In this document: piece after piece, positions 12,580-45,949 of the stretch | How positions within the stretch are numbered: the first letter of the stretch is position 1 | Layout: each line of letters starts with the position of its first letter | Source: an uncultured Deferribacteres bacterium | GTDB lineage: Bacteria; Zhuqueibacterota; JdFR-76; DREG01 | DNA: 64,000 nt | Direction: 5' to 3' | Assembly: GCA_913009825.1 (NCBI GenBank) | Contig: CAJVYQ010000025.1 | Location: 1 to 64,000, forward strand | The notes under the pieces: model-generated | What the model was told of the DNA's origin: nothing | The model's input: the letters and a program-made list of their open reading frames with translations, nothing else | Databases searched by the model: none | Position numbers and translations under genes: made by a program

Positions 12580-12723
12580 TTAGTGTCTGTCCCAAAATAC
12601 CCACAATATTGTTTTTCCGGCTATCTTTAAGCCGCCTGCCTGTTGCAGACAGAGAATCTACTTAAGGGCAGCAATGGATTCCCGCTAAAAGCATGCGGGA
12701 ATGACAAATTCGGACAGACACTA
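12580..12723. repeat. GTGTCTGTCC-family inverted-repeat element, copy a
   Basis: Ends TTAGTGTCTGTCCCAAAATA and AATTCGGACAGACACTA form terminal inverted repeats. The interior (GCCGCCTGCCTGTTGCAGAC, GCAGCAATGGATTCCCG) matches copy e at 58734-58881 in opposite orientation. Confidence 0.8.
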
Positions 12724-25912: not shown

Positions 25913-26704
25913 CTCACGAGAGGAGAATACGAAACAGCTAAAGGTTTGGAATTTACTTCTGCGAACTTGCTTTTAAATCGCTATTGCTTTTCTAATGGTA
26001 CTACAAAATTCAACAAACCTTTAACCAGATGTAATAAACTTCTCCTTATTTGATAGTGGATCTTTTTAACTCAAATCAAGATATTAATTCCATATAAAAT
26101 TGTCAAGCTTTTTTTCCAAATCGACGAATCTGTTTCAATCCTAATTTTATATTTTATTAATCGGCACAAAATAGAAAAAGATCCATTTTTTTTTTGAGGT
26201 TGCCCACTAAATACACGAAAAACACTAAAATATCTTTGATTATTAGTATCTTTCGTAATTATTCAGCTTGGTTTGGTTTTGCCACGAAGCCGCGAAGCCA
26301 CAAAATTTCATAAAGAAAACCATTATATTTTTGTAACTACTCAGCTATGCTTGTTTGAAACCTTCGACTGAGTTTATCCTGAGCTTGCCGAAGGGCTCAG
26401 CATGGCTATTTAAAGTCTGTCCGAAAATACCATTTTTTGTTATTTCGATCCGCCAAAAGGCGGAGAGAAATCTGTTTAACCCTTTAAGTTATTGTAACAT
26501 ACAGATTCCTCAACTCCGTCCCGATAAAAACCATCGGGACTTCGCCCGGAATGACATATTTCCCGAGTTTTCAGACAGACACTATTTAAGAAGGTTGAAT
26601 CCGAAAGTTTACTTATGAGTTAAAATATGGATTGCAAGTTTGGGGTTATTTCGATATATTCAAAAAAATCATGACTGACATGTTAACCATACCGAGGAAT
26701 GAAA
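25913..26704. other. Divergent intergenic region filled with repeats
   Basis: Separates porV (minus) from the cytochrome c assembly gene (plus). 26213-26345 contains degraded GTAACTATTCAG-family ends (TAATTATTCAGC, GTAACTACTCAGC) and CACTAAATACACGAAAA. 26359-26406 matches the interior of the 8789 element. 26409-26589 is a further element listed separately. About 110 bases of AT-rich leader precede the gene. Confidence 0.6.
26409..26589. repeat. GTGTCTGTCC-family inverted-repeat element, copy b
   Basis: Ends TTAAAGTCTGTCCGAAAATA and TTTTCAGACAGACACTATTT. The interior (GAGAAATCTGTTTAAC, GATAAAAACCATCGGGAC, CGGAATGACA) matches copy c at 47412-47582 in the same orientation. Confidence 0.8.
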
Positions 26705-27529
26705 ATGGAATTCGTCGTTTTTTTTAAGTGGATCGTCTCTTTGGGTTATTTATTTTCTCTGATTCTGTATGTACGTTTTTTTATACAACAATCGGTAAAA
26801 TTAAACCGGCTTCTGTCTGCATCTGTGCAGCTAATTCTTGTATGCCACTTTATCTATCTATTCGTCTTAACGCTTCATACCCGGCATCTGCCGCTCAGCA
26901 ATGTTTATGAAGTTATGACTTCTTATGTGTTTATTTTTACTTTTATTTATTTCTTCATCGAACGAAAAATCAGGGATTTTTCATTAGGACCGGTGATTCT
27001 TGTCATTGCTTTTATACTTCAGCTTATTTCAAATTTGTGCATCAACCCGGAAATGGGACGTGCTCCGGTTTTAGCGGAAATATCGTTTTTTGAAGTACAT
27101 GTCTCTGCAATGCTTCTGGCTTATTCCGGTTTTACAATTTCCTTCATCGCAAGTATCATGTATGTCATGCTTTCCCGTGAAATTCATAACAAAAAGCTTG
27201 GCTTTTTTTTCTCACGGCTTCCGTCGCTTGAATTATTAGATCGTCTGAGTAATATGGCCGTCATCGTTGGCGTTAGTTTTATCACCATCGGAATTTTTCT
27301 TGGCATAGATATGGCATCCAAAGTTTGGGGCGCCAAATGGCCTTTCGATCCTAAACTGATATCCGTTTTTGTTACCTGGTTGATCTATCTGTTCTTCATT
27401 TATTTCCGGAATAGCAAAGGATGGCAGGGAAAACGTGCGGCCATTGTTTCAATAACTGGTTTTGTCTGGGTTTTAATTTCCTTTATGGTTTTTACCATCT
27501 TTCTTTCTGAAATTCATTCTTTTATTTAG
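26705..27529 (+). CDS. CcsA/HemX-like cytochrome c assembly membrane protein
   Basis: 274 residues from ATG 26705, with GAGG 8 bases upstream; an ATG two codons earlier is too close to it. About eight transmembrane segments. The region VWGAKWPFDPKLISVFVTWL matches the Trp-rich WWD haem-handling loop of the CcsA/CcmC family, and HTRHLPLSNVYEVMTS fits the conserved periplasmic loop His. In many bacteria a protein of this type (HemX) sits directly before hemA. Here it sits 8 bases before a gene whose N-terminal half is a HemA homologue, so the ancestral hemX-hemA order appears conserved. Role: haem delivery for cytochrome c maturation or control of HemA level. Confidence 0.85.
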   Translation: MEFVVFFKWIVSLGYLFSLILYVRFFIQQSVKLNRLLSASVQLILVCHFIYLFVLTLHTRHLPLSNVYEVMTSYVFIFTFIYFFIERKIRDFSLGPVILVIAFILQLISNLCINPEMGRAPVLAEISFFEVHVSAMLLAYSGFTISFIASIMYVMLSREIHNKKLGFFFSRLPSLELLDRLSNMAVIVGVSFITIGIFLGIDMASKVWGAKWPFDPKLISVFVTWLIYLFFIYFRNSKGWQGKRAAIVSITGFVWVLISFMVFTIFLSEIHSFI

Positions 27530-27537: not shown

Positions 27538-29493
27538 ATGCAGATCATTGTTTTTGGTTTACATGAACAGAATGTGCCTGAAAAAATTTGGCATCAGGGC
27601 AAATATGAGATCGATTCTTTTTACCGTTTCATTTCCCCGTTGAATGATTTGGTGCCTAATTCGGAATTTTTATTTGTCAATTCTTCTTATGCCCGGGAAA
27701 TTCTTGCGGTTGTAGAAAATGCGCAGGAAATCAAGCATAAATTTAAAGAATTTTATCATTCCCATTTTAATTTGAAAAAGCCTGTAAACTTAATCTTTCA
27801 TGATCTGGAAGGGCCCGATGCCGTAAAGCATTTTCTGCAATTATCCCTCGGGATTGAATCGACAATCGGCACGCAACAACAAGAATTTTTACAGAGAATT
27901 TCTGAAAGCATAGAGGTTGCCAATAATCTGAATTTAGCCGGCCCGATCATCAATCGAATTTACCATGATGCTTTAATTTTGCAGGGGAAAATAAAGATAG
28001 ACAGCTATACCATCGATCAGACGAGTTTGAGCCGGCAAATCCGTGAACTGGTTAAAAAAATCTTTTTCGGAAATGCGCGTTTGGACCTGTTTATCATTGG
28101 TAAAAATGAAACCTATTTGTCTTTGATTATATCAACTTTTTCAAATTCGGTTGCTAATATAAAAATTTATTCCGTTGATGTCACTGCTGAAACCCCGGAT
28201 GAAAATTACCGGCATTATGTGGCCGGCCCGGAGATCGAAAGCAGGCTTTTGGCATCGCAGGTAATTTTCCGTCTCAATCAGGAAGCAGGCCGCTTTTTTA
28301 ACGCCGACACCCTGAACAAATTGATGCAAAAAAGAAAAAACCGGCCGTTGTTAATCATCAATATGGATTCCACTATTGCCGGCGAAAGCGCGCTCAATCG
28401 TGTTTACAATTTGTATAATTACCATATCTCTGATTTTCAACATGGAGAAGAGAAACAAAGTGTTAAAATCAATCTGCAGCGGTTGATCGAAAATGAATTA
28501 AAAGAATTCTTTTCCTGGTTTTACTCGAAACGATATCACCATTTCGGCAATATTATTTCCAAAAGTACCGCGATGGAGCATATTCTGGAAATGATTGCCC
28601 GTATCTCGCAAACGGATATAACAGTATTAATTCAGGGAGAAAGCGGCACCGGCAAAGAAATTATTGCCCGGGCAATTCATAGAAACAGCCGGCGCAAAGA
28701 TAAACCTTTTATTGTAGTAAATTGCAGCGCTCTTACCGAGACTTTGTTGGAAAGTGAACTTTTCGGACATGAACGGGGAGCTTTCACCGGCGCGACTTAT
28801 ACGAAAAAAGGTCTATTTGAAGAAGCGCATCAGGGTTCCATTTTTTTGGATGAGATCGGCGATACTTCTCCCGCGCTGCAGGTAAAATTATTGCGAGTCC
28901 TGCAGGAAGGAGAAATTAAACGGGTGGGAAGCACTGAAACCACCCGAATCGATGTTCGGTTAATTGCCGCCACGAATCAAAATCTGGATGATCTTGTCCG
29001 GGAGAAAAGATTCAGGCAGGATCTGTATTATCGCCTGAATGTGGTCAATTTGAACTTGCCGCCGTTACGGGAGAGGAAAGAAGATATCCTTCCGCTCGCA
29101 GAATATTTTATGGGCAAATATTCGGATAAAATGAAAAAACAAATTACCGGTTTTACCGAACGGGTACGACAGATTTTAGTAAAGTATTCATGGCCGGGAA
29201 ATGTCCGTGAATTGGAAAATGCCATCGAACGAGCGGTCGCACTTGCCATCGGCAATATTGTTCATACCGGTGATCTTCCGGAAGCAATACGTGGAGAAGA
29301 GGCAGCCGGTTTTATCCGGGAAAAAATAAACAAGAATCTTACTTTGAAAGAGATTGAGAGGGAAGCGATACACGCCAACTTAATTGCAACAAATTGGAAT
29401 TATGATAAGGTTGCGGATATGCTAAAAATCGGCCGGACTACTTTATGGCGGAAAATGAAGGAATATGGGATAAGCAGGAGAAAAAATGATTGA
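27538..29493 (+). CDS. Pseudo-glutamyl-tRNA-reductase fused to a sigma-54 AAA+ activator
   Basis: 651 residues. Residues 1-~332 align end to end with HemA encoded at 36151-37422: IIVFGLHEQNVPEKI with IIVYGINHSTAPVEI; AVKHFLQLSLGIEST with AVSHLFRVASSLDSM; QKRKNRPLLIINMD with LRRKNRPLFFIDIA; ELKEFFSWFYSKR with EVDRFMQWYRSRN. The catalytic Cys50 of HemA is Ser50, Arg52 is Ala52, GDAQILGQ is lost and the NADPH loop GAGKMG reads GKNETY, so it should not reduce glutamyl-tRNA. His98 is retained. Residues ~336-570 are a complete sigma-54 activator domain: GESGTGKE (Walker A), GAFTGA loop, GSIFLDEIGD (Walker B), WPGNVRELEN. A Fis-type helix-turn-helix ends it (YDKVADMLKIGRTTLWRKM). Likely senses haem-pathway status and activates transcription. 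Confidence 0.9.
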   Translation: MQIIVFGLHEQNVPEKIWHQGKYEIDSFYRFISPLNDLVPNSEFLFVNSSYAREILAVVENAQEIKHKFKEFYHSHFNLKKPVNLIFHDLEGPDAVKHFLQLSLGIESTIGTQQQEFLQRISESIEVANNLNLAGPIINRIYHDALILQGKIKIDSYTIDQTSLSRQIRELVKKIFFGNARLDLFIIGKNETYLSLIISTFSNSVANIKIYSVDVTAETPDENYRHYVAGPEIESRLLASQVIFRLNQEAGRFFNADTLNKLMQKRKNRPLLIINMDSTIAGESALNRVYNLYNYHISDFQHGEEKQSVKINLQRLIENELKEFFSWFYSKRYHHFGNIISKSTAMEHILEMIARISQTDITVLIQGESGTGKEIIARAIHRNSRRKDKPFIVVNCSALTETLLESELFGHERGAFTGATYTKKGLFEEAHQGSIFLDEIGDTSPALQVKLLRVLQEGEIKRVGSTETTRIDVRLIAATNQNLDDLVREKRFRQDLYYRLNVVNLNLPPLRERKEDILPLAEYFMGKYSDKMKKQITGFTERVRQILVKYSWPGNVRELENAIERAVALAIGNIVHTGDLPEAIRGEEAAGFIREKINKNLTLKEIEREAIHANLIATNWNYDKVADMLKIGRTTLWRKMKEYGISRRKND

Positions 29494-29643: not shown

Positions 29644-30150
29644 TTATAGTTTATCGCCGTCTAAAATCTCCGGCATAAAATATTGCATACTGCTTTTTTT
29701 AAATTCCCGCACACTGAACAAAATCGTATAATCTGAAATACCGATCTTTTTACTGATCATTTTTGCAATTTGTTCAACTTCCCCTTTGTTTTTTCCATGC
29801 AGCATGCCGTAAATATTGTAAGGCCAGTTGGGGAGCGGTGACCGGTGGTAGCAATGGCTGACTTCAGGGAATGCCGCCATTTTTCTGCCAACCTCAACTA
29901 TGCAGTATTCCGGTACCTGCCATACGGACATTCCATTTGCATTATAACCTGCATTTTGGTGATAAAGAATAGCGGTGAATCTTCTCAATGTTTTGTTCTC
30001 TTGCCAACGCCGCAACGTGGAATAAAGCCATTCTTCCTCTACCTTCAATTCTCTGGCAATGTCGCCGAAAGGATCGTGGGAGAGAGGAATGTTTTGCTGA
30101 CACCTGCGAATTAATTTGATCTCTTTTTGTGTTAACGGTTGAACCTGCAC
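29644..30150 (-). CDS. ahbB: Siroheme decarboxylase subunit AhbB (Lrp/AsnC-like)
   Basis: 168 residues, GTG start directly behind the ahbA stop, with GGAGGA upstream. AhbA/AhbB together convert siroheme to 12,18-didecarboxysiroheme in the alternative haem pathway. The protein has the Lrp-like helix-turn-helix plus RAM fold: DPFGDIARELKVEEEW, LRRWQENKTLRRFTAILYHQ, VWQVPEYCIVEVGRKMAAFP, EVSHCYHRSPLPNWPYNIYG, LFSVREFKKSSMQYF. The HCYxR...NWPYN block is typical of AhbB/NirG-type subunits. Last gene of the minus-strand operon. A transcriptional regulator role is possible but less likely given the context with ahbC and ahbD. Confidence 0.88.
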   Translation of the reverse strand: MQVQPLTQKEIKLIRRCQQNIPLSHDPFGDIARELKVEEEWLYSTLRRWQENKTLRRFTAILYHQNAGYNANGMSVWQVPEYCIVEVGRKMAAFPEVSHCYHRSPLPNWPYNIYGMLHGKNKGEVEQIAKMISKKIGISDYTILFSVREFKKSSMQYFMPEILDGDKL

Positions 30151-30612
30151 TTATTTGTCCTCCGTCATTTTGAAATGAACTTTTATTTTAAATTTTTGCA
30201 AAGATGGCAGCGGAATCATTTCTTGTGCTCCTGTCTTTTGTTTGAAAAATTCAATCAACTCCTCCACTCTCTGTTTTGAAGAGGCTGTGAAGGTGAACCA
30301 TAAATTATATTCATGATTTCTTTGATAGTTGTGGGTTACACCGGTGAACCTGTTTAAAAACGTCACGGTTTGTTCAAGGTCCTCCTCTGCCACTTTTGCA
30401 GCTACTAATACGCTGTAATAACCCAGACCGGTTGAATCGAAGCTGCCGCCGATACGGCGAATAATACCGTTCTCCTTTAGTCTTTTAATTCGGTTAATGA
30501 CATCATCTTTGTCAATGGCTGCTTTTTGCGCCACAACTTCAAATGCATTGGGAACAATGGGGATCTCTTTCTGAATAATATCAAGAATTTTTCTATCTGT
30601 CTGATCCATCAT
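30151..30612 (-). CDS. ahbA: Siroheme decarboxylase subunit AhbA (Lrp/AsnC-like)
   Basis: 153 residues from ATG 30612, which overlaps the ahbD stop (ATGA), with GGAGG upstream; a longer frame reaching 30720 lies wholly inside ahbD. Family features: MDQTDRKILDIIQKEIPIVP, RIKRLKENGIIRRIGGSFDS, LGYYSVLVAAKVAEEDLEQT, TGVTHNYQRNHEYNLWFTF. The THNYxRxHEYNLWFT stretch corresponds to the active-site region conserved in AhbA/NirD-type subunits. It acts as partner of AhbB. Confidence 0.9.
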   Translation of the reverse strand: MMDQTDRKILDIIQKEIPIVPNAFEVVAQKAAIDKDDVINRIKRLKENGIIRRIGGSFDSTGLGYYSVLVAAKVAEEDLEQTVTFLNRFTGVTHNYQRNHEYNLWFTFTASSKQRVEELIEFFKQKTGAQEMIPLPSLQKFKIKVHFKMTEDK

Positions 30613-31706
30613 CCTGCTGCCTCCATAACTGCTGATTTGGGTTTCAATTTGGGTTCGTAAATGCAGTAGGGCTCTTCGTCCAGATAATCGCCTGTCGTGG
30701 CGTAGGCTCTCGCTCTGCATCCGCCGCAGACGTTACGGTATTCACAGTATCCGCACCTTCCGTGATAACTGTCCTGATCACGCATTTGCAGAAAGACCGG
30801 GGAAGTTTGCCAGATATGCTCAAAATTGTAATTGGCCCGGCGCAAATCACCGCATTCGGTTTCCAAAAATCCGCAAATTTGCACTTTGCCGGTATGAGAG
30901 ATGAATGCAAATGATTGTCCTCCCATGCAACCCTTGGTCATCGCCTCAAAACCGTGTGTATCGGGGGTAACGGTGCGTCCTTTTTCCTTTTCCCGCTGGC
31001 GGAAAATTCTGTAGTAGTGCGGAGCGCAGGTGGGTTTGAACTGAATTGGCAATTCATCTCTCTGCTCGTAAATCCAATTAAGCACTTTTTCGTATTCAAC
31101 CGGAGATATCTCCTGTTTCGCCAGTTCCTTTCCCCTTCCGGTGGGAACCAATAAAAACGGATTGAACGCCACAGCGCCGACTTCAATGGCCAGCTTTAAA
31201 ATACGGCTAAGTTCATGGACATTTTGCTCAGTAACCGTCGTGTTGATCTGAAATTCCAGACCGTTTCGCCCGGCGGCGTCAATCCCTTTCATGGCCTCCG
31301 AAAAAGCCCCGGGCACCCGGCGAAAGCGATCATGACTTTCTGCCGTTGCACCATCAATGCTAATGCTGATCCGCTTGATCCCCGCGTTCAACATTTTTTG
31401 CACGGTGTTGTCTGTCATCAATTTCCCGCAGGGAGACATGACCATACGAAAACCGAGATCCGTGCCGTATTTTGCAATTTCAAATACATCTTTTCGCATC
31501 ATCGGGTCGCCGCCGGTGAGAATGATGATGGGGTGGACAAACCCGGAGATGTTGCTCATCGTGCGGAAAATTTCTTCCGTCGTCAACTCATTAGGATAAG
31601 GCCCGAACCGGGCAGCCGCCCTGCAGTGAATACAATTTAGCTCGCAACTTCTGGTTATTTCCCAGGCGATAAGGCGCGGCAGATAAATTTTATTTTCAGG
31701 TTTCAC
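30609..31706 (-). CDS. ahbD: Radical SAM heme synthase AhbD (Fe-coproporphyrin III decarboxylase)
   Basis: 365 residues, GTG start. Radical SAM cluster in SCELNCIHCRAAA (CxxxCxxC), SAM-binding ILTGGDPMMRKD, and a C-terminal SPASM-like cysteine set (GRCGYCEYRNVCGGCRARAY) for auxiliary clusters. HWEIT-type start RLIAWEITRSCELNCIHCR, PFLLVPTGRGKEL and FKPTCAPHYYRIFRQR are characteristic of AhbD rather than NirJ. It catalyses the last step, oxidative decarboxylation of two propionates of Fe-coproporphyrin III to haem b. Co-transcribed with ahbA/ahbB downstream and hemB upstream. Confidence 0.88.
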   Translation of the reverse strand: MKPENKIYLPRLIAWEITRSCELNCIHCRAAARFGPYPNELTTEEIFRTMSNISGFVHPIIILTGGDPMMRKDVFEIAKYGTDLGFRMVMSPCGKLMTDNTVQKMLNAGIKRISISIDGATAESHDRFRRVPGAFSEAMKGIDAAGRNGLEFQINTTVTEQNVHELSRILKLAIEVGAVAFNPFLLVPTGRGKELAKQEISPVEYEKVLNWIYEQRDELPIQFKPTCAPHYYRIFRQREKEKGRTVTPDTHGFEAMTKGCMGGQSFAFISHTGKVQICGFLETECGDLRRANYNFEHIWQTSPVFLQMRDQDSYHGRCGYCEYRNVCGGCRARAYATTGDYLDEEPYCIYEPKLKPKSAVMEAAG

Positions 31707-31733
31707 AGGTATTAAACGCTCCTCTTTAATTTA

Positions 31734-32705
31734 TTATGATAAAATGTTTGCCGCATCTTTGGCAAAATAAGTTAAAATTAAATCGGCGCCGGCCCGTTTG
31801 ATGGAAGTCAGCGCTTCCAACATCACCCTTTCCTCGTCGATCCATCCCTTCAGGCCGGCCGCCTTGATCATCGCAAATTCGCCGCTAACATTGTATGCGG
31901 CGGTTGGTATATGGAATTTTTCCTTCACCCGGCGGATGATATCCAGATAGGAGAGTGCCGGCTTCACCATTACCATGTCGGCGCCTTCCTGGATATCCAA
32001 TTCCACCTCGCGGATGGCCTCGTCGCCGTTGGCCGGGTCCATCTGGTAGCTGCGCCGGTCGCCGAATGCCGGAGCGGAATCCGCTGCGTCCCGGAAAGGA
32101 CCGTAAAAAGCGGAAGAAAATTTGGCGGCGTAAGAAAGAATAGGTATTTGTAAAAAGCCGCTTTTATCCAGAGCGCTGCGAATTGCGGCAACCCGCCCGT
32201 CCATCATGTCTGATGGCGCGACCACATCCGCGCCGGCTTTGGCATGGGACACCGCCATTTTCCCCAGCCATGCCAGCGTCGAATCGTTATCCACATCTTT
32301 GCCGATGACATGACCGCAATGGCCGTGATCGGTATATTCGCAAAAACAGACATCGGTAATCACCGTTAATCCGGGGACTTCTTTTTTCAGCGCCCGTACC
32401 GCAATCTGGATGATGCCGTCATCGGCGATCCCTTCCGAACCCAATTCATCTTTGTGCGCGGGAATGCCGAACAGGATCACAGCCGGAATACTCAGTTCAG
32501 ACACTTCCCGGCACTCTTTCACTAATTCATCGACGGAAAAGCGGAAATTCCCCGGCATGGATGGGATCTCTTCTTTAACTCCCCGGCCATGTTGGACAAA
32601 AAGAGGAAAAATGAAATCGTCCACCGAAAGTTTGGTCTCGCGAACCATTCTTCTTAAACTTTCCGTTTTTCTCAAGCGCCGCATCCGGTTAATGGGAAAT
32701 GACAT
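31734..32705 (-). CDS. hemB: Porphobilinogen synthase (delta-aminolevulinate dehydratase), copy 1
   Basis: 323 residues, GAGGAG before ATG. It condenses two 5-aminolevulinate molecules to porphobilinogen. Signature [15 protein letters not shown], Schiff-base lysines in [18 protein letters not shown] and [14 protein letters not shown], and a cysteine-rich Zn site [15 protein letters not shown] second copy at 40364-41332 has about nine residues in ten identical by hand comparison. Embedded between ahbC and ahbD, which suggests this copy belongs to the Ahb operon. Confidence 0.95.
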
Positions 32706-32795
32706 TTTAATTCTCCTCTGTTTTTACGCTATATGATCACGGGATTTTTTCCCCCGTGTTTTTCTATTTTCTCATGATCGGTTAATGCCCTTCTC

Positions 32796-34040
32796 TCAGG
32801 CAAAAGAGCTCAATTCGCCTGTTACTGCATCCGCGGGTAACTTCTGTTGGGTTCTTCGGGTCAGGCCGATTTCATCATCGGTTAAATAACATGCCGGATC
32901 CGGCGCCCAGACATCTCCGGTGGTAGCCTCCGCCCGGACACGAAAATTGCCGCCGCAAATGTTTTTCCATTGGCAGGAAGCACAGCGTCCGGTTAAATGA
33001 GGAACCTTATTTTTAAGTTTGGCCATCAGCGGATTGCTTAGATCTGTCCAAATTTCGCTGAAGTTCCGTTCGCGTACGTTGCCAAATGAATAATGGCGCC
33101 AAAACTGATCGGCGTAAACTTCTCCGTCCCAACTGACGCAGCCTATGCCGTGCCCGCTGCTATTGCCCTGATTCATTTTCAATAAAGTTAATACCTGCTC
33201 CGCTCTCTCCGGATTCTCGCGCTTCAGGCGTAAGTAAAGGTGTACGCCATCAGCGTGGTTATCTACCGTTAACACTTCTTTGGGGATGCCCCGGGAATGT
33301 AAATCCGCCGTCAGATTGATAATTTGATCGACTACCTGCCGGGTTTGTTCGCGGCTCAAATCTTCACGAATCAATTTACTGCCGCGTCCCGAATACACCA
33401 AATGGTAAAAACAAACGCGGGGGATATTTTCTTCTTCCAACAGTTGGAAAATTTTCGGGATGTCCCGGGCATTTCGCCGATTAATCGTGAATCGCAGGCC
33501 AACTTTTATACCGGCCTCCCGGCAATTTCGTATTCCATTCAGTGCGCTGTCAAACGCTCCCTTCACGCCACGGAATTTATCGTTGGTTTCGCCGACACCG
33601 TCCAGGCTTACGCCTACGTACGACAGGCCGACATCTTTCAAATCTTTTGCCGTATTCCGGTTGATCAAAGTGCCGTTTGTGGAGATCACTGCCCGTAATC
33701 CTTTATCTGTGGCGTAGTTTGCCAATTCCAACAGATCCGGGCGCATGAGAGGTTCACCACCGGAAAACAGGATAACGGGAGCGCCAAATTGAGCGAGATC
33801 ATCGATGAGGGCTTTTCCTTCGGCTGTAGATAGTTCATGGTCGTAAAATTTATCTTTGGACGAAGAATAACAGTGCATACATTTCAAATTGCAACGTCTT
33901 CCCATGTTCCAAACCACTACAGGTTTTTTATCCTGGGAAAACTGCAACAGATGTGACGGCAATTCTTTGGATTTGCGTCCGTACCGCAGTGGGTCCGACG
34001 GTTCCACCACGCCGCAATATAGTTTGGAAATTCCTATCAC
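32796..34040 (-). CDS. ahbC: Radical SAM 12,18-didecarboxysiroheme deacetylase AhbC
   Basis: 414 residues, GTG start 6 bases after AAGGAG. The N-terminal MIGISKLYCGVVEPSDPLRY and YGRKS stretch is diagnostic of AhbC. Radical SAM motif RRCNLKCMHCYSSS, then LFSGGEPLMRPD, SLDGVGETNDKFRGV, and C-terminal cluster cysteines in GIGCVSWDG and GRCASCQWKNICGGN. It removes the two acetate side chains of 12,18-didecarboxysiroheme to give Fe-coproporphyrin III. Situated between cobA-hemD copy 1 and hemB copy 1. Confidence 0.9.
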   Translation of the reverse strand: MIGISKLYCGVVEPSDPLRYGRKSKELPSHLLQFSQDKKPVVVWNMGRRCNLKCMHCYSSSKDKFYDHELSTAEGKALIDDLAQFGAPVILFSGGEPLMRPDLLELANYATDKGLRAVISTNGTLINRNTAKDLKDVGLSYVGVSLDGVGETNDKFRGVKGAFDSALNGIRNCREAGIKVGLRFTINRRNARDIPKIFQLLEEENIPRVCFYHLVYSGRGSKLIREDLSREQTRQVVDQIINLTADLHSRGIPKEVLTVDNHADGVHLYLRLKRENPERAEQVLTLLKMNQGNSSGHGIGCVSWDGEVYADQFWRHYSFGNVRERNFSEIWTDLSNPLMAKLKNKVPHLTGRCASCQWKNICGGNFRVRAEATTGDVWAPDPACYLTDDEIGLTRRTQQKLPADAVTGELSSFA

Positions 34041-34122
34041 GATAACTCCTTCTGTTTTTCAGAATGTAACTATTCAGATTGCCCGCGAAATACACGAAAA
34101 ATTCAAAATTATTCAGCCCTGT

Positions 34123-36150
<2,028 letters not shown>

Positions 36151-36169
<19 letters not shown>

Positions 36170-37422
36170 TCATTCTCCAGACCAAATACTTCCTTTATCG
36201 TGCAGCGCCGGCAGACAACCTCTGTTTCTGGACAAGTTTTAAGACGCATGATAGGGCTGTGTAAAAATTTCTTCATTAAACTTTTTGAAAATTTATCGAT
36301 ATCGGCCAATTCTTCATCTTTAAAATGTTTTTTACTGCGGCGAATTTCCTCTTTTCGCAGGGAATCAAAATGTTCCTGCAATTGCCGGATAGTATAAATT
36401 GTGTTGCGCGACCGGTACCATTGCATGAACCGGTCGACTTCTTCTGCAAGAATTTTTTCTGCTTTGGGGATTTCTTTTTTCCGCTTACCCATATTTTTTT
36501 TTACAATGTTCTGCAAATCGTCGATATCAAAAAGATAGGTGTTGTAAATTTCTTTGATCCGGGGATCTATATTGCGGGGAACGGCGATATCGATGAAAAA
36601 AAGCGGCCGGTTCTTTCGCCGTAACATAGCGTTTTTAACCGTAACCGGGGTTAAAACAGGCTGACTGGCAGACGTTGAAGTGATGACAATATCTGCATCT
36701 ATTAATGCCCGGTGTAATTGATCAAATGGTAAAGCCTGTCCGTTTACTCTATTTGCCAATTCTTCCGCTTTTGCCGGAGTCCGGTTAAGAATGAAAATTT
36801 CCAATGAATCGAAATTGCTTAATTGCCGGATCACCTGTTGTCCCATTTTTCCCGCACCGACCAAAACCACCTTTTTCCCAACAAAATCCCTGAATAATTT
36901 CTGTGCCAGATTAACGGCAACCAACCCTACGGAAGTGGAACCTTCGCCGATTTTAGTTTCTGACCGAACCCGTTTTGCGGTTCTAAAGGCGGAATGAAAT
37001 AGCCGGTTGAGGAGGCTGTCGCTGGTTTCGGCCTCTGTTGCCCAAATATAGGCCTGCTTTGTTTGACCCAATATTTGCGCGTCGCCGACAATCATAGAGT
37101 CAAGACTTGAAGCTACACGAAAAAGATGACTGACGGCGTTTTGCTCATTTTTTTGATAAAACAATTCTTCGCTGATATTTTCTTGAATATTCTTCACTAA
37201 TTGAAACTGCCGTGAAATCTGGCCATTTAAATTGGCCCGATCTTCCACAACACCGTAAACTTCGGTGCGATTGCAGGTTGAAAGAAGAACAGCTTCTTTC
37301 AATATCTTTTTGGACACAAGGTGTTTGATGGTAGCTTTCGCAATCGGTTCGGAAAAACTCAATTTTTCCCGGATTTCTACGGGCGCAGTTGAATGATTAA
37401 TTCCGTAAACAATAATAGCCAT
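36151..37422 (-). CDS. hemA: Glutamyl-tRNA reductase
   Basis: 423 residues. It reduces glutamyl-tRNA(Glu) to glutamate-1-semialdehyde, the first committed step of haem synthesis by the C5 route. Catalytic Cys50 in LLSTCNRTEVYGVVE, His99, GDAQILGQ, NADPH loop LVGAGKMGQQ, and the C-terminal dimerisation helices (EVDRFMQWYRSR, LQEHFDSLRKEEI) are present. The tail has extra cysteines (LKTCPETEVVCRRCTIKE). No fused SirC domain. The regulator at 27538 is a diverged homologue of this protein. Upstream DNA is a 1.2 kb repeat-rich gap; downstream it overlaps the decayed hemC. Confidence 0.95.
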
Positions 37423-37893: not shown

Positions 37894-38449
37894 CAATGTT
37901 GTTGACTTAAGAAAGATTCTCTTATAAATCATTAACAATTGCCAATTATCAATTAACAATTGTTTTTAATTGTGAATAATCAATTGATAATTGCCAATGA
38001 AAATATTTTTTTACCTCCTTAACCCGGGATATTCACAAGTTTTGTTGGGATAAACCTTAACCTGTTTATATATCACATGTTAAGCAGTTGTTTACACAAA
38101 AAACAAATTTCTAAACGCAGAGTTCGCAAAGGACGCAGAGAATGGCGATTTATCTTCACCAATACTTCCCTGTTGATAACTGTCTCTTATAGTATCAAAT
38201 AGTTAAGTTTTTCTCTGCGTAACTCTGCGGTCTCGGCGAACTCTGCGTTAAATATCTTTATAACCTAAATTGAGCGATTCATAGCTTGAAACAACCACCC
38301 AACTAGTTTTGTCATTCTGCCTGCCCGACGAACCGCAGGCGGGAAAGAATCTTGTTAGTTTTGTGCACTAAACCAACAAGATTCCTACGGAATGACATTA
38401 GAATCGCTCAATTTAGGTATAAATAATTCAGGTTAAGTCAACAACATTG
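37894..38449. repeat. 556 bp unit with perfect 17-base terminal inverted repeats
   Basis: Left end CAATGTTGTTGACTTAA at 37894-37910 and right end TTAAGTCAACAACATTG at 38433-38449 are exact inverse complements. It has no ORF and encloses the AACGCAGAG hairpins and the 156 bp element at 38263. Could be a composite of nested non-autonomous elements. Confidence 0.65.
38263..38418. repeat. 156 bp inverted-repeat element, AATTGAGCGATTC family, copy 2
   Basis: Ends ACCTAAATTGAGCGATTC and GAATCGCTCAATTTAGGT. Inverse-complement copy of 7367-7522 with few differences. Confidence 0.85.
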
Positions 38450-38595: not shown

Positions 38596-39882
38596 CTACA
38601 ACAATTGTGCAACTACCTTTTTATGCACTGCCAATGTCCGGTCAAGATCATCCTGAGAATGTGCCAGCGAAACAAAAGTGGCTTCAAATTGAGATGGAGC
38701 AAGATAGATACCGTTTTCCAACATGAATTTGTGGTATTTTGCAAACAATGCTGTGTCCGATTTTGTTGCTTCCGTATAATTGGTAACCGGATCGGGATTG
38801 AAGAAAAAACAACCCATGGATTCAATGGAATTGCCGGCAAAAGGGATATCGAAACAGACGAAATTCTCCGTCATACCGATGAATAAATAATCCGATTTTT
38901 TACACAGTTTGGCATAAACATTTTCTTGTTGTAAAATTTCCAACGTAGTCAGACCTGCGGTCAGGGCAAGGGGATTTCCCGATAGAGTTCCTGCCTGATA
39001 AACCGGGCCTTCGGGGGCCAGCATCTGCATGATCTCTTTTTTGCCGCCGTAAGCGCCCACCGGCAAACCGCCGCCGATAATTTTTCCCAGCGTTGTCAAA
39101 TCGGGCTTTACATCAAAATATGCCTGCGCGCCGCCCAGAGCGACACGGAATCCGGTGATCACTTCATCGAAAATGAGCAGAATGTTGTATTGATCCGCTA
39201 ATTTACGAAGATTTTGCAGAAACTCCAATTCAGGCAAAACTACGCCCATATTGCCGGCCACAGGCTCAACGATGATGGCGGCGATCTGCTCCGGAAATTG
39301 TTCTACAAGATTTTCGACGCTTGCCAAATTATTGTACTCGGCGTTGAGTGTATCTGCGGCGGTTGATTGCGGCACACCGGGCGTGCTTGGCACACCCAGC
39401 GTTGTGGCGCCGGAGCCGGCCTGTATCAGGAAACTGTCGCCGTGTCCGTGATAACAACCGGCAAATTTGATGATTTTATCCCGTTTTGTGTAAGCGCGGG
39501 CCAGGCGAACGGCGCTCATGGTCGCTTCGGTGCCGGAATTGACCATGCGTACCATCTCCACGCCGGGCACCAGTTCGCAAATTTTTTGTGCCATTTTCAC
39601 TTCAGCTTCGCAATTGGCGCCGTAGCTGGTGCCGTTTTCCGCTGCTTTTTGCACCGCTTCGATTATCCGCGGATGCGCGTGTCCCAGAATCATGGGGCCC
39701 CAGGAAGCGACGTAATCGATGTATTGGTTACCGTCGACATCCCAAATTTTGCTCCCTTCAGCCCGGGCGATGAAAGGCGGCGTTCCGCCAACCGATTTAA
39801 ATGCCCTGACCGGTGAGTTCACTCCGCCGGGAATGTATTGTGTCGCTTCATCGAACAATCTTTTACTGTTTTCTGATTTCAT
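38596..39882 (-). CDS. hemL: Glutamate-1-semialdehyde 2,1-aminomutase
   Basis: 428 residues, AGGA before ATG. A PLP enzyme converting glutamate-1-semialdehyde to 5-aminolevulinate. Hallmarks: YIPGGVNSPVRAFKSVGGTP, NSGTEATMSAVRLARAYTKR, FAGCYHGHGDSFLIQAGSG, FDEVITGFRVALGGAQ and PLP-lysine region TTLGKIIGGGLPVGAYGG. Full length. Lies between hemB copy 2 and hemA on the same strand. Confidence 0.95.
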   Translation of the reverse strand: MKSENSKRLFDEATQYIPGGVNSPVRAFKSVGGTPPFIARAEGSKIWDVDGNQYIDYVASWGPMILGHAHPRIIEAVQKAAENGTSYGANCEAEVKMAQKICELVPGVEMVRMVNSGTEATMSAVRLARAYTKRDKIIKFAGCYHGHGDSFLIQAGSGATTLGVPSTPGVPQSTAADTLNAEYNNLASVENLVEQFPEQIAAIIVEPVAGNMGVVLPELEFLQNLRKLADQYNILLIFDEVITGFRVALGGAQAYFDVKPDLTTLGKIIGGGLPVGAYGGKKEIMQMLAPEGPVYQAGTLSGNPLALTAGLTTLEILQQENVYAKLCKKSDYLFIGMTENFVCFDIPFAGNSIESMGCFFFNPDPVTNYTEATKSDTALFAKYHKFMLENGIYLAPSQFEATFVSLAHSQDDLDRTLAVHKKVVAQLL

Positions 39883-40363: not shown

Positions 40364-41332
40364 TCACAGCAATCTCGCCGCATCTTTGGCAAAATAAGTT
40401 AAAATCAAATCGGCGCCGGCCCGTTTGATAGAGGTGAGCGCTTCCAGCATCACTCTTTCTTCATCGATCCATCCTTTTTGCCCTGCCGCTTTAATCATGG
40501 CAAATTCTCCGCTAACATTGTAGGCGGCGGTTGGCACACGGAATTTTTCCTTCACCCGGCGGATGATATCCAGATAGGGGAGTGCCGGTTTCACCATAAC
40601 CATGTCTGCGCCCTCCAGGATATCCAATTCCACTTCACGGATGGCTTCATCACCATTGGCCGGATCCATCTGGTAGCTGCGCCGGTCGCCAAACGCCGGT
40701 GCGGAATCTGCTGCATCACGAAAAGGTCCGTAAAATGCGGAGGCAAATTTTGCCGCATAAGCCAGGATCGGCAGATGGCTGAAACCGTTTTTATCCAGAG
40801 CGCTGCGAATGGCGGCCACGCGTCCGTCCATCATATCCGATGGCGCCACAATATCCGCACCGGCCCTGGCATGGGACACCGCCATTTTCCCCAGCCATTC
40901 CAGCGTCGAATCATTATCCACGTCGTTGCCGATGACATGACCGCAATGGCCGTGACCGGTATATTCGCAAAAACAGACATCGGTAATCACTGTCAAATTG
41001 GGAACCTTCTTTTTCAGCGCCCGTACCGCAATCTGGATAATGCCGTCATCGGCGATTCCTTCCGAGCCCAATTCATCTTTGTGAGCGGGAATACCGAACA
41101 GGATCACGGCCGGAATACCCAGTTTAACCACTTCCCGGCACTCTTTCACCAGTTCATCGACGGAAAAACGATAATTTCCCGGCATGGATGGAATCTCTTT
41201 TTTCACTCCTTCGCCATGTTGGACAAAAAGAGGAAAGATGAAGTCGTCCACCGAAAGTACGGTTTCGCGAACCATTCTTCTGAGAGTTTCGGTTTTTCTG
41301 AGCCGGCGCATGCGGGTAATTGGAAATGACAT
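40364..41332 (-). CDS. hemB: Porphobilinogen synthase, copy 2
   Basis: 322 residues, with AAGGAG 10 bases before ATG. All catalytic features are kept: [48 protein letters not shown] and the Zn-site [14 protein letters not shown]. About 90 percent identical to the copy at 31734, with differences concentrated at both ends and in loops. Both copies look functional. It probably belonged with the hemC/cobA-hemD block at 44.4-46.9 kb before the toxin-antitoxin and cassette-like genes were inserted between them. Confidence 0.94.
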
Positions 41333-41712
41333 TTTAAGTTCTCCTTTTTAACGGAAATTCTGTAGGCGATTCGGCATTTCGCTCTACGATTGTTCATTGT
41401 ATGTCATAATTATTATAACATTGCAGTTAAGCTGCCGTGCCAAGTTTAAGCGACTTAAAACGTACGATTCTTGCCCGCGTGGCACGGTCAGCTTGACCTG
41501 GTGGTTCTACATTTTTATCTTTTTTCTCAACGGTTTGGGCTATGAAGCGTGTGAGGTTTTTGAAACAACTATCTTTCATTTTACTACAATATTTATTGGG
41601 TGTTCAGAAATTCTGTATAACTTCTACACCCGCCATGCTTTATTAGCCTTTGTTATGGGCTGGGCTTTCATTTTTTCTTTGAATGTGCAATATATGCAAT
41701 TATTGTGCAATG
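41333..41712. other. Gap with an imperfect inverted repeat
   Basis: 41428-41443 (TTAAGCTGCCGTGCCA) and 41480-41496 (TGGCACGGTCAGCTTGA) are inverse complements with a one-base bulge. No T-run follows. The rest is AT-rich; an open frame at 41397-41750 has no recognisable family and is not called. Confidence 0.5.
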
Positions 41713-42288
41713 TCATTTTTTTAATTCATAAAAACTTCCTGCTCCTTTAAGATATGAATTGTCGGTAAGTTTCAAATTTTCAAGAACATTCTCATTGCTT
41801 TCAGTCAATATGCTTTCATCGATTTTTTTGCTATTGACAGCTCTTTTTTTGAAAAAATCAAAAGTTTCACTTTTTAATTCTGTAACTGAAATATTAGGGA
41901 CAGGAACTCCATCCCAGGTTTTCACTTTCTTTTCAAGTAAAAATTTGTCTAATGCCGCACCTTTTAATTCCTGTTTGGTACTTCCGCTTCTGTAATGATA
42001 TTGTCCTTTGTAATTGACGGGGAAAGGTTGTGGTTCAACAATTATTTCAATAAAGTCGCTATTTTCTGTTTTGTATAGATCAACATTTACTATGATACCC
42101 AAAATATCTTTTACTTTATTCGGGATATCTTCAAGAAGTCTTCTCGAGTTTTTAAGTCCTACAATTTCACCTTTGCCATTTTTACCGACGATTATTTTTC
42201 CGCCGTTAGCATTTGCAAACCCGCAGATCCATTTCAGATATTCGTCTTTCCAAATTTCTTTCCATTCAATATTTTGATTTTCTTGCAT
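41713..42288 (-). CDS. AlbA_2/Schlafen-type DNA-binding domain protein, C-terminally truncated
   Basis: 191 residues. The N-terminal ~110 residues match the Schlafen AlbA_2 (divergent AAA_4) domain: EWKEIWKDEYLKWICGFANA, NANGGKIIVGKNGKGEIVGL, IIVEPQPFPVNYKGQYHYRS, GSTKQELKGAALDKFL. Family members are usually 350-550 residues and continue after NLKLTxNxYLKRAAILLF. Here the frame breaks to NLKLTDNSYLKGAGSFYELK and stops, so the protein is probably a truncated remnant. AT-rich relative to the haem genes around it, consistent with transfer. May have been a regulatory or defence-associated protein. Confidence 0.7.
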   Translation of the reverse strand: MQENQNIEWKEIWKDEYLKWICGFANANGGKIIVGKNGKGEIVGLKNSRRLLEDIPNKVKDILGIIVNVDLYKTENSDFIEIIVEPQPFPVNYKGQYHYRSGSTKQELKGAALDKFLLEKKVKTWDGVPVPNISVTELKSETFDFFKKRAVNSKKIDESILTESNENVLENLKLTDNSYLKGAGSFYELKK

Positions 42289-42372
42289 TTAAATCTCTTT
42301 TCTCACAAAAATATTGTTTTTATGTCGGGTTAAGGAATAATTACACTGTTTTATTTCTGTTTTCTTCGCCTT

Positions 42373-42508
42373 GCCTATAACGGTGAGTATATGAAAAGTT
42401 GCCGATTTCGAGGCACTCATTTTTCAATTTATGATGAAGTTGAAATGTGCTGCAATGCTTGATTTTACTGCTATTTCGGCAATTTTTTATATACATTGTT
42501 GTAGGGCG
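42373..42508 (-). repeat. Integron attC-like cruciform site
   Basis: 136 bases with imperfect inverted arms: GCCTATAACG...TATATGAAAAGTTGCCGA against the complement of TCGGCAATTTTTTATATACA followed by TTGTTGTAGGGCG. On the minus strand it starts TACAAC and ends GTTATAG, as expected for attC R-double-prime and R-prime boxes. An internal hairpin (CATTTTTCAA/TTGAAATG) and unpaired bases are also typical. It begins 5 bases after the stop of the gene at 42513, the normal position in a gene cassette. No integrase is in the window. Confidence 0.5.
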
Positions 42509-42512
42509 TTTT

Positions 42513-43484
42513 TTATTCATTCTCATTTATTTCAATCATAATTGTAGAAACTCCACCACCATTATCATCAATTCTATAATTGTCATTGTTGTCAATGTAA
42601 TTATCACCACCGCTTTCATTAAATTCATTTCTAATATCAGAATAATATGAGTTATAGTTTTCTGTATTTAGAAAACAACACCCATCAAAATTGATAGAAG
42701 TTTTTCGCGGAAAACGACCTAATCCAGCATTCTTTCTTCTTGTCATCTTATTTTTAGAAATAGAAAGCAAGTCCCAAATCATTTTTGACCAGTCTTCTGT
42801 TATAGATGCTTTATCGCTTATCGTTCTTCCAGTTGCAAACATTAGAAAGTTTAATATTTCATTTGTAAAATCACTATAAATGGATATTAAATTGTCAGGA
42901 ATAGCACAACCGAATGCAAATGTTCCATCTAATCCTAAAGTCAAAAATGGGTCGGGGTCAATTAGCAAATATCTTGCACCTTGTGTTACACATTTTGGGT
43001 GAATATCTATTGTTTTTCCATTTAAGGCATTGGCTCGCAAATATTTAAACTTTGGCCATTTTGTATATAATTCTAATTGATGCAACTCATTACTTGAAAT
43101 TTTGAAATTTTGTCTACTTGTTTTTTTTACTTGAAGAAGTAATGAATTTATAGTTGTCTTACCATAAAGGTCTGTGTATTTAAAAACAAAGAGTATGTCT
43201 CCTAATTCAGGGTTCTTGGCTTGTCCAAAATCAACGATAGGTTTTTGATGGCAATAAACACTGGCTAAACCTATTTGCAATTTAGGATGTAAGATAAGTT
43301 TTAATATTGTATGAAGTTCTTGTGTCCAATTCAAAGTCAAGTCAGCAATAAAATCTGGTTCTTCTGCTGAATTTCCTAAAAAAGCACATCTTTGATGAGT
43401 TCTGATTATACTCTTTGTCAGAGAATTATGTATCAAATTCTCTAATGAAGTTCTATTGGATATGATGTTGTTAATTAGTATCAT
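42513..43484 (-). CDS. Unknown 323-residue protein, possible restriction-endonuclease-like fold
   Basis: I do not recognise the family. The central part, PELGDILFVFKYTD then ~10 residues later SLLLQVKKTSRQ, resembles the D...(E/Q)xK core of PD-(D/E)xK nucleases. A downstream region (ELYTKWPKFKY) and a C-terminal acidic low-complexity run (GGDNYIDNNDNYRIDDNGGG) follow. AT-rich, no signal peptide or membrane segment. Followed directly by an attC-like hairpin, so it may be a cassette gene. It sits beside a Schlafen-type remnant and a toxin-antitoxin pair, a context that suits a defence function; this is inference. Confidence 0.6.
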   Translation of the reverse strand: MILINNIISNRTSLENLIHNSLTKSIIRTHQRCAFLGNSAEEPDFIADLTLNWTQELHTILKLILHPKLQIGLASVYCHQKPIVDFGQAKNPELGDILFVFKYTDLYGKTTINSLLLQVKKTSRQNFKISSNELHQLELYTKWPKFKYLRANALNGKTIDIHPKCVTQGARYLLIDPDPFLTLGLDGTFAFGCAIPDNLISIYSDFTNEILNFLMFATGRTISDKASITEDWSKMIWDLLSISKNKMTRRKNAGLGRFPRKTSINFDGCCFLNTENYNSYYSDIRNEFNESGGDNYIDNNDNYRIDDNGGGVSTIMIEINENE

Positions 43485-43735
43485 ATTTTGTCTTTCTTAA
43501 ATGCTGCCAACTATTGTGTAAATGCCATTGTGTTTATTCCACCAAATTGGCAAGCTAAACGCAATTGTGTATATTTTTCTTTTACAAGCATCTTCTATGT
43601 ATAACATACACTTAAACAGGATAAACAATACAGACGGGATAAATGGTTTTTATCTTGCTGATCATGTTTTTCTTGTCTAATATTTGCAAAAACCGGAACA
43701 GGTTGGGCGCTATCCCGAAAGAATGGTTAACTTCC

Positions 43736-44074
43736 CTACCTGCCGATGATTTCATTCAATCCATCAATGATGCTATTCAGTTCTTCGGGCTCGACATGAC
43801 TAATGTAATTACCAATTCTTTTTATGGATAGGGTCCGGATTTGGCTGATTTTCACCCATGATTTTTTTGGCAAATCAGGCGAAGAAAGTTCATAAGTAAG
43901 TGGAAATCCGGCTTTTTGAGAATTGCTTGTAATAGCTAAACCAATTATTGTTCCGGAACGTTCGTTGAATACATTTTCACTGATTATCAGAACCGGCCTG
44001 AAACCCGCTTGCTCATTTCCAACTGCCGGATTCGGATTTGCCCAAAATATATCTCCCCTTAATATTCTGGCCAT
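43736..44074 (-). CDS. mazF: MazF/PemK-family toxin (endoribonuclease)
   Basis: 112 residues. [54 protein letters not shown] and [20 protein letters not shown] match the MazF/PemK SH3-like barrel, including the conserved GxRPVLI and QIRTLS strands. It cleaves mRNA at short motifs when released from its antitoxin. The start overlaps the antitoxin gene by 16 bases, as is usual for the family. Confidence 0.92.
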
Positions 44075-44304
44075 GCATCAGCCTCCACATCCATTCCTTC
44101 CTCTGCAAGATTGGTTTCCTCCGCAGGATTTAATTTGGCACATTCGCGGGCCAGACGACTTTTTGATATTCTCTCAATTTTTTCTTTCACAGCTTCCTGG
44201 ATAGCACGGCTGCGATTGGGAAAAATCTTTTTTCTCACCATTCCATCAATTTCTTTCAGAATATTTTCATCAATGGATATTGCAATTTTGGCTGCCGGCA
44301 TCAT
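44059..44304 (-). CDS. mazE: Ribbon-helix-helix antitoxin partnered with MazF
   Basis: 81 residues, GAGG just before [41 protein letters not shown] is a ribbon-helix-helix DNA-binding unit (CopG/MazE type). The acidic C-terminus ([17 protein letters not shown]) is the likely toxin-neutralising tail. It autoregulates the pair from the promoter just upstream. First gene of a two-gene operon inserted between hemB copy 2 and cobA-hemD copy 2. Confidence 0.88.
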
Positions 44305-44330
44305 TCATCCTCAATATTGGTTTTTAGTAT

Positions 44331-44359
44331 ACAATATAAAAAAGTAATACAAATTTCAA
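44331..44359 (-). promoter_or_regulatory. Putative sigma-70-type promoter of the toxin-antitoxin operon
   Basis: On the minus strand TTGAAA (44354-44359), 17 bases, then TATTGT (44331-44336). GTATAC overlaps just downstream and could be an operator for the RHH antitoxin. Confidence 0.4.
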
Positions 44360-44410
44360 TACCAAAAGTTTAGAATCATAGCTCTGCGTTCTTTTTTTGC
44401 GAAGACAACA

Positions 44411-45949
44411 TTACTTCCGATAATAATCAACAATCTCCTTCACCAATCCCGGAATCGTGTATTCATTCGGCATCAGGCGGCAACTCAGGCCGAATTTTTC
44501 GGCTGTTTTTTTTGTGATGGAACCGATACAGGCAATGGCAACATCCGGCAAATTCCGCATTTCCCGTTCACCGATCAGGGTGACAAAATTTTTCACCGTT
44601 GAAGAACTGGTGAATGTAATCAGGTCGATTTCTCCCTTTTGGATTTTTTCCGTCAGATCTTTGCGCTGTTCCGTTTCAACAACGGTTCGGTAAGCGGTAA
44701 TTTCTTTGACGATGGCGCCGGCACGCGATAGTTCATCAACTAAAATGCTGCGGGCCTCTTCGGCGCGGGGGAGAAGAAACCGCTTCCCGGTAATTGAACC
44801 CTGCCGCCGGATCGCTTCCAGCAACGATTCGGCGACAAATTTTGGCGGCTGCAGATCCGGAAAAATGCCGTTTTGGCGCAGTCGCTCGCCAGTTGCCGGA
44901 CCGATGGCGGCAATTTTCACTGGGTGCAAATACCGGCAATCATGCTCTTTTGCCTTTAACCGCTCCAGAAAAAACTGCACGCCGTTAACGCTGGTAAACA
45001 GAAGCCAATCGAATCCGGAAATCCTGTCAATGGCTTCGTCCAGCGCTTGCCGGGAATGGGGCGGTTCAATGCGAATGGTGGGAAACTGAAGCACATCCGC
45101 ACCCAGTTCGCGCAATTGGGCATCCAGTTCGCTGTTTTGCGCCCGCGCCCGGGTGATGACAATTCTTTTGCCAAACAACGGTTTTTTTTCAAACCAATTC
45201 ATTTTTTCCCGGTAACGCACCACTTCTCCGACAATGATGAGGGCCGGCGCCTGAAACTTCTTTTCCTGCGCCAGTCTTGCAATTGTATCCAGTTTACCGG
45301 TGATGGTTTGCTGTCGCGGCAGCGTACCCCAGCGCACCAGCGCAACCGGCGTGTCGGGCGCTTTGCCGTGTTTCATCAGGTTTTGGCAAATGACCGGCAA
45401 ATTTTTTATCCCCATGTAAAAAATGAGCGTTCCCTGCATTCCCGCAATTGCCGGCCAGTTCAAACCGGATTCCGGTTTTGTCGGGTCTTCATGCCCGGTG
45501 ATGAATGAGACGGAAGTTGCGTCGCCTCTTTGGGTTGCCGGAATCCCGGCGTAGCTTAAAGCGGCAATGCCGGCCGTGATGCCCGGAACCACTTCAAAAT
45601 CGATTCCCGCATCGTAAAACGCCAGCACCTCTTCGCCGCCGCGTCCGAAAATGAAGGGATCGCCTCCTTTCAGACGAACCGTCAGTCTTTGTTCCCGTGC
45701 CTTTTCAATCAACAGGTCATTGATTTCGTTCTGCGGCAGCGTGTGTGTGCCCGCCTTTTTACCCACATAAATGAGTTCCGCATCCGGTTGGCAATGAGCT
45801 AAAATCCGTTCGTTTGCCAGGTGGTCATAGACTACCACGTCGGCTCTTTGCAGATAATCGACCGCCTTCAGTGTCAGCAAAGCCGGATCTCCGGGGCCTG
45901 CGCCGACCAGCACAACTTTTGCCCGGTTATTTTTAAGTGTTTTTGCCAT
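44411..45949 (-). CDS. cobA-hemD: Fused uroporphyrinogen-III C-methyltransferase / uroporphyrinogen-III synthase, copy 2
   Basis: 512 residues from ATG 45949, which overlaps the hemC stop by 17 bases; a frame extending to 45985 lies inside hemC. CobA half: VVLVGAGPGDPALLTLKAVD, TVRLKGGDPFIFGRGGEEVL, VVPGITAGIAALSYAGIPAT. HemD half: GKRIVITRARAQNSELDAQL, LFTSVNGVQFF, LPRAEEARSILVDEL, ITFTSSSTVKNF. Makes precorrin-2 from hydroxymethylbilane. More diverged from copy 1 than the two hemB copies are from each other, yet ordinarily terminated. Confidence 0.92.
   Translation of the reverse strand: MAKTLKNNRAKVVLVGAGPGDPALLTLKAVDYLQRADVVVYDHLANERILAHCQPDAELIYVGKKAGTHTLPQNEINDLLIEKAREQRLTVRLKGGDPFIFGRGGEEVLAFYDAGIDFEVVPGITAGIAALSYAGIPATQRGDATSVSFITGHEDPTKPESGLNWPAIAGMQGTLIFYMGIKNLPVICQNLMKHGKAPDTPVALVRWGTLPRQQTITGKLDTIARLAQEKKFQAPALIIVGEVVRYREKMNWFEKKPLFGKRIVITRARAQNSELDAQLRELGADVLQFPTIRIEPPHSRQALDEAIDRISGFDWLLFTSVNGVQFFLERLKAKEHDCRYLHPVKIAAIGPATGERLRQNGIFPDLQPPKFVAESLLEAIRRQGSITGKRFLLPRAEEARSILVDELSRAGAIVKEITAYRTVVETEQRKDLTEKIQKGEIDLITFTSSSTVKNFVTLIGEREMRNLPDVAIACIGSITKKTAEKFGLSCRLMPNEYTIPGLVKEIVDYYRK

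Follow-up and report, generated by a model that had tools for sequence, protein, structure and literature searches.

The glutamyl-tRNA reductase (GluTR; HemA or GtrR) step is a main control point of haem synthesis, and GluTR is a dimer. In Bacillus subtilis and Staphylococcus aureus, haem-proficient cells hold GtrR at low abundance through HemX, a protein with eight transmembrane segments; 106 of 113 genomes have hemX next to gtrR, and HemX was never found without gtrR (PMC5801465). Transcription-level haem homeostasis, which the protein described here would also serve, is the task of Irr, HrtR, PefR, HbrL, HssRS, HrrSA and HasI among the systems treated in the available portion of a 2024 review (PMC11442138), and no haem regulator in that portion pairs sigma-54 activation with a GluTR-derived domain.

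The window, that is, the whole 64,000-nucleotide stretch of DNA that was analyzed, encodes such a pairing next to a gene for a HemX-like membrane protein, with the following features:

26699..27529, + strand: HemX-like (CcsA/CcsB-related) membrane protein, 276 aa, 8 predicted transmembrane (hydrophobic) segments (Pfam Cytochrom_C_asm, 1e-36)
27538..29493, + strand: fusion of a GluTR pseudoenzyme and a sigma-54 activator, 651 aa, reading frame intact
27538..28533, + strand: pseudo-GluTR sensor, residues 1-332 (BLASTP against the genome's own HemA, PDB profile search, AlphaFold2 and Foldseek)
27685..27687, + strand: codon 50, encoding Ser where GluTR has its catalytic Cys50 (alignment)
28552..29304, + strand: AAA+ sigma-54 interaction domain and lid, residues 339-589 (Pfam PF00158 and PF25601, motifs)
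29341..29466, + strand: Fis-type helix-turn-helix (HTH), residues 602-643 (Pfam HTH_8, 3e-12)

Residues 1-331 of the fusion align with residues 1-339 of the HemA encoded in the same window (BLASTP with fusion residues 1-339 as query, E = 5e-12, 19% identity, few gaps), and RKNRPL and W..S.R blocks are common to the two proteins. A Pfam scan of the single sequence gave a weak GlutR_N match (residues 53-147, 4.6e-5, under the curated cutoff). The assignment is settled by a family profile built from 19 N-domains (alignment A1). The significant PDB matches of this profile were solely GluTRs (1gpj at 6e-33, 4n7r at 1e-22), and scans of the individual members detected GlutR_N in 17 of 19 and the NADP-binding family Shikimate_DH in 8 of 19. 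An AlphaFold2 model of residues 1-345 (pLDDT 79.6) was searched against the PDB using Foldseek; GluTR chains take the first seven places (E 4e-16 to 2e-12), and NAD(P) Rossmann proteins come next at about 1e-4, among them NAD dehydrogenases and RSP, a repressor of the Rex family. TM-scores lie in a moderate range of 0.46-0.61, which would fit a changed angle between the domains or a model of limited quality. An ordinary receiver, PAS or GAF domain was considered for this region and rejected, as profile and fold both give GluTR. The sensor comprises a catalytic-like domain, an NADP-like Rossmann domain and the start of the spinal helix (helix 304-328), and in the model of the full-length fusion (AlphaFold2, pLDDT 82.5) a short linker joins the spinal-helix segment to the AAA+ domain. 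Identity among the N-domains of the family is 16-40%, a divergence so high that ligand sites cannot be read from the sequence.

The residues on which GluTR catalysis depends have been lost. In an alignment of 28 fusions and 16 HemAs, Cys50 and Arg52 are kept in none of the fusions (0/28) versus both in every HemA (16/16), the substrate-site residues Cys50, Asn51, Arg52 and Gln116 are missing from all or nearly all fusions, the GDAQILGQ block is destroyed, and no fusion retains the NADP glycine loop GAGKMG. In the window protein the GluTR motif GDAQILGQ reads TQQEFLQR and GAGKMG reads GKNETY, and a Pfam scan found no C-terminal dimerisation domain (PF00745). Glu43, by contrast, is invariant in fusions and HemAs alike, and the equivalents of Glu54 and His99 are retained in the window fusion. 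As far as sequence can tell, the pseudo-GluTR domain is enzymatically dead. It is nevertheless no decaying relic: the domain is full length and under purifying selection, with dN/dS of 0.07-0.27 in the pairs that allowed an estimate, several of these pairs having dS close to saturation. All fusions fall on one side of a branch supported at 100/100, so a single origin would be the simplest reading.

The C-terminal half carries the hallmarks of a sigma-54 activator. Sigma54_activat (PF00158) matches residues 339-505 at 9e-73, and the protein contains a Walker A motif (GESGTGK), a GAFTGA loop and a Walker B motif (LDE). The loop reads GAFTGA or GSFTGA in 26 of the 27 fusions for which the region is complete; the remaining one, in genome G004 (L040:3321-5273, contig C157), has a degenerate GAVAEA, which may mean that contact with sigma-54 has gone there, and the AAA+ motifs of the other fusions are intact. 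HTH positions L629, I631, R633 and T635-K639 are invariant in the family alignment, and RpoN is encoded in all eight genomes tested (8/8). None of the NCBIfam activator models reaches its cutoff on the fusion, and their matches fall essentially on the AAA+/HTH part. Judged by its AAA+ domain, GAFTGA loop and HTH, the fusion is predicted to be a sigma-54 enhancer-binding protein with ATPase activity and a hexameric active form.

The initial annotation had proposed a dead GluTR fused to a sigma-54 activator, and this reading is fully supported by the profile, the fold, the lost residues and the intact AAA+ and HTH regions. Its nearly gap-free alignment of residues 1 to about 332 with HemA was reproduced by BLASTP, and the comparisons it had suggested, of a predicted structure with GluTR and of a profile with the GluTR N-terminal and shikimate/NAD families, both returned GluTR. 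The substitutions Cys50 to Ser50 and Arg52 to Ala52 are correct by the alignment with HemA, the loss of GDAQILGQ and of the NADPH glycine loop was confirmed, and Pfam agrees that an AAA+ module and an HTH stand in place of the dimerisation domain.

The hemX-like gene ends 8 bp before the fusion gene on the same strand, and the two are presumably co-transcribed. Its product scores 137 bits with the CcsB model TIGR03144, under the cutoff of 187.6. Wherever the sequence upstream of a fusion is available, the gene immediately before the fusion is hemX-like, also in G048 and in G185, a genome of another phylum; this invariant partner was absent from the initial annotation. A hemX homologue adjoining an authentic HemA gene is also present, at locus L117. 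From gene order only, we infer contact between HemX and the pseudo-GluTR domain. The hemX-fusion pair stands near hem/ahb genes in G000 (the window's own genome), G005, G006, G050, G056, G061, G062 and G073, and alone in most other genomes. In G005 the order on one strand is hemX, fusion, siroheme-synthase-type gene, hemA, hemC, hemL, cobA-hemD, ahbC-like and hemB, and G006 has a comparable arrangement; the pair and a complete hemA-to-hemL/ahb cluster converge in G062; in G050 the fusion survives as a contig-edge remnant beside hemA. A gene for a TonB-dependent receptor resembling siderophore or haem receptors lies between the hem cluster and the hemX-fusion pair in G073 (L111:16390-18528).

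In the window, the neighbouring haem-synthesis genes are:

29644..35712, - strand: siroheme-dependent haem genes, convergent with the fusion (Pfam), including two siroheme decarboxylases (ahbA/ahbB-like) and the next four genes
30609-31706, - strand: ahbD (AhbD 526 bits, NCBIfam cutoff 500)
31734-32705, - strand: hemB (Pfam)
32796-34040, - strand: ahbC (AhbC 734 bits, NCBIfam cutoff 650)
34123-35712, - strand: cobA-hemD (Pfam)
36151..37422, - strand: catalytic HemA (GluTR) (TIGR01035 434 bits, Pfam)
38596..39882, - strand: hemL, glutamate-1-semialdehyde aminotransferase (ORF translation; same strand as hemA)

As AhbC and AhbD exceed their NCBIfam cutoffs, the cluster encodes the siroheme-dependent route to haem. 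The local HemA retains STCNR, GDAQILGQ, GAGKMG and the dimerisation domain, and the window hemL, used as the HemL reference, has homologues of 56-67% identity in related hem clusters. The cluster is partly duplicated (31734-36052 and 40364-46874), with hemB copies 91% and cobA-hemD copies 63% identical and with one full copy of hemC (45933-46874) besides a hemC remnant that lacks the middle part (35684-36052). A second intact HemA with STCNR kept is encoded elsewhere in the genome (L120:3341-4570, contig C58), adjoining a siroheme-synthase-type gene and apart from the ahb cluster. The window also contains dispersed repeats of about 120-180 bp that are 80-98% identical, some of them inverted (26406-26588 and 47410-47582; 7366-7523 and 38262-38419; 12576-12723 and 58736-58882; 1-127 and 8601-8728).

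A search of 59 relatives returned many homologues, about 18 of them reading frames with the sigma-54 module. We then scored 69 KSB1/Calditrichota genomes at least 80% complete, counting a genome as HemA-positive if it carries the GluTR dimerisation domain. The fusion is present in 27 (the G050 remnant included) and HemA in 23; 21 have both and 40 neither. The fusion thus occurs in 21 of 23 HemA-positive versus 6 of 46 other genomes (Fisher p = 2e-10, a value inflated by relatedness). At the level of families, 10 have both, one has HemA only, none has the fusion only and 10 have neither; four families (f5, f9, f14 and f18) are internally mixed, yet fusion and HemA mostly agree within them. The two HemA-positive genomes that lack the fusion, G033 and G070, are both fragmented. 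Among about 300 genomes of other phyla, the fusion was found in G185 alone, together with hemX, and none of the long HemA frames of other phyla (G335, G137, G218, G163, G256 and G116) matches the sigma-54 part; the frame in G116 is a siroheme-synthase-type/HemA fusion. Genome contigs searched with the single fusion protein gave no match, and a search with alignment A2 gave 15 loci, mostly from metagenome-assembled genomes labelled KSB1, Calditrichota or Caldithrix, the exceptions being two labelled 'bacterium' and one labelled 'Bacteroidetes'. By these named records the family belongs to candidate division KSB1/Calditrichota.

Six of the genomes with a fusion have no detectable HemA dimerisation domain, and four of them are near-complete. 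These four (G015, G024, G035 and G036; listed completeness estimates of 98-100%) keep the hemX-fusion pair, and searches for the HemA dimerisation domain, HemB and canonical HemE detected remote URO-D paralogues only. The membrane partner is called HemX-like rather than HemX because the pair is kept in these genomes without a catalytic HemA. ALA synthase was considered as an alternative start of the pathway and rejected, as none of the 69 genomes has a match over the cutoff. Genes for haem-copper oxidases and for the assembly of cytochrome c are retained in the same four genomes, an indication of haem use in place of, or besides, haem synthesis. If the assemblies are right, missing contigs being possible, the regulator outlives haem synthesis and has its targets in haem use.

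The initial annotation had also called the protein a candidate regulator of the haem pathway that activates haem or cytochrome genes through sigma-54. The first part is strengthened by the co-occurrence with HemA, the hem/ahb neighbours in several genomes and the invariant HemX partner, and a search for the same fusion elsewhere, which it had suggested, yielded the 27 phylum genomes and the one genome of another phylum. Sigma-54 transcription of the haem genes themselves is unsupported locally: scans of the window, the fusion neighbourhoods and the HemA loci gave no -24/-12 site above background for the promoters of hemX-fusion or of hem genes. Across six genomes, strict -24/-12 sites are about 2- to 6-fold more frequent than a reversed-pattern control. 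Most sites at ORF starts precede flagellar, envelope or unrelated genes, and three are haem-related. The first, in the window's own genome, is the perfect site TGGCATAAAGATTGCT, 27 bp before the gene for a cytochrome with 19 CXXCH motifs. This 19-haem cytochrome is a member of a multihaem cytochrome cluster (L242:1474-12272, contig C76), whose products have 12, 8, 19, 6 and 9 CXXCH motifs. The second, TGGCACATCTCTTGCA, also perfect, lies about 31 bp before a CcmF/NrfE-family haem lyase gene in G013, and the third, the near-perfect TGGCATACCTCTTGCC, 53 bp before its orthologue in G028; the CcmF-type gene of the window's own genome has no -24/-12 site. That these promoters are targets of the fusion is speculation, because the window's own genome encodes about 20 other AAA+ activators and the three promoters share no upstream activator dyad.

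In our reading, the retained GluTR fold would still receive what GluTR gets in other bacteria, either a report from HemX on haem or tetrapyrrole status or the metabolite itself. The altered N-domain would then act through the spinal helix to permit or block assembly of the AAA+ hexamer, and the active ring would open the sigma-54 promoters of genes for the use or supply of haem; these would more likely be cytochromes and cytochrome c biogenesis genes than the adjacent hem operon. We assign a probability of roughly 0.6 to the reading of the protein as a one-component sigma-54 activator that senses through a catalytically dead GluTR and has HemX as its membrane partner. The fuller proposal is tentative, and we would put it at somewhat short of even odds: that HemX and the pseudoenzyme form a membrane-to-promoter system for haem status, in which the former control contact between HemX and GluTR no longer sets enzyme abundance but has been rewired to switch a sigma-54 ring, activating cytochrome and haem-handling genes and persisting in lineages where haem synthesis has been lost.

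Alternatively, the pseudo-GluTR domain could itself bind glutamyl-tRNA(Glu), haem or another pathway metabolite, with HemX a mere co-transcribed neighbour. The retention of a GluTR fold with catalytic-like and NADP-like domains, the invariance of Glu43 and the conserved Glu54 and His99 equivalents of the window fusion would suit a direct ligand. However, all or nearly all members have lost Cys50, Asn51, Arg52 and Gln116, the C-terminal domain of GluTR is missing, and the hemX linkage is invariant; we therefore regard this explanation as rather unlikely. It is less probable still that the protein is an ordinary activator of non-haem genes in which the GluTR domain is a neutral relic of hemA-derived sequence that joined a sigma-54 module. 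Most sigma-54 sites do precede flagellar, envelope or other genes, and the hem promoters lack one, but purifying selection on a full-length N-domain, the constant hemX linkage and a distribution tied to haem synthesis speak against neutrality. Another hypothesis is that the domain heterodimerises with, or is titrated by, catalytic HemA, so that the activator reads HemA abundance or occupancy, as the dimeric nature of GluTR and the co-occurrence with HemA might suggest. Yet the dimerisation domain is exactly the part that has been replaced, and the six fusion genomes without a detectable HemA dimerisation domain, four of them near-complete, make this quite improbable. A Rex-like Rossmann sensor of NAD(P)H redox state, unrelated to haem, would account for the Foldseek matches to RSP and NAD dehydrogenases that follow the GluTRs, but we consider it highly improbable given the destroyed glycine-rich loop, GluTR E-values better by many orders of magnitude and the haem genomic context. 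An assembly or annotation artefact, conceivable inasmuch as draft assemblies are the source of the window and of most relatives, is refuted by the same architecture in 27 phylum genomes and one outside, all in a single clade.

In the literature searched, which covers subscription journals and preprints poorly, we found no description of a GluTR/sigma-54 fusion; each half is known, and the combination appears to be previously undescribed as far as searched. The fusion looks like a way to couple haem status to gene expression. It offers a clear case, in the haem pathway, of a transcription factor whose sensor derives from the biosynthetic enzyme of the committed step, and it gives a phylum with few cultured members a candidate regulator of haem. 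The constant pairing of the pseudoenzyme with a HemX-like protein also provides a way to follow the action of HemX on GluTR by a transcriptional read-out. Like NtrC, NorR, NifA and RtcR, the fusion combines Walker A and B motifs, a GAFTGA loop, a lid and a Fis-type HTH with a separate N-terminal sensor, and RpoN is present; unlike in any of these, the sensor is a pseudo-GluTR. It resembles HemA/GtrR (1gpj, 4n7r) in how the catalytic and NADP domains fold and follow each other and in having the start of the spinal helix, but it lacks the catalytic Cys and Arg and the NADP loop, and the dimerisation domain has given way to a transcription-activation module. The closest parallel in gene arrangement is the HemX-GluTR pair of B. 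subtilis and S. aureus, where likewise a gene for an eight-transmembrane HemX protein adjoins a GluTR-family gene in a haem-linked setting (PMC5801465). There, HemX sets the abundance of a catalytic GluTR post-transcriptionally (PMC5801465), whereas here the neighbour is a dead enzyme built into an activator.
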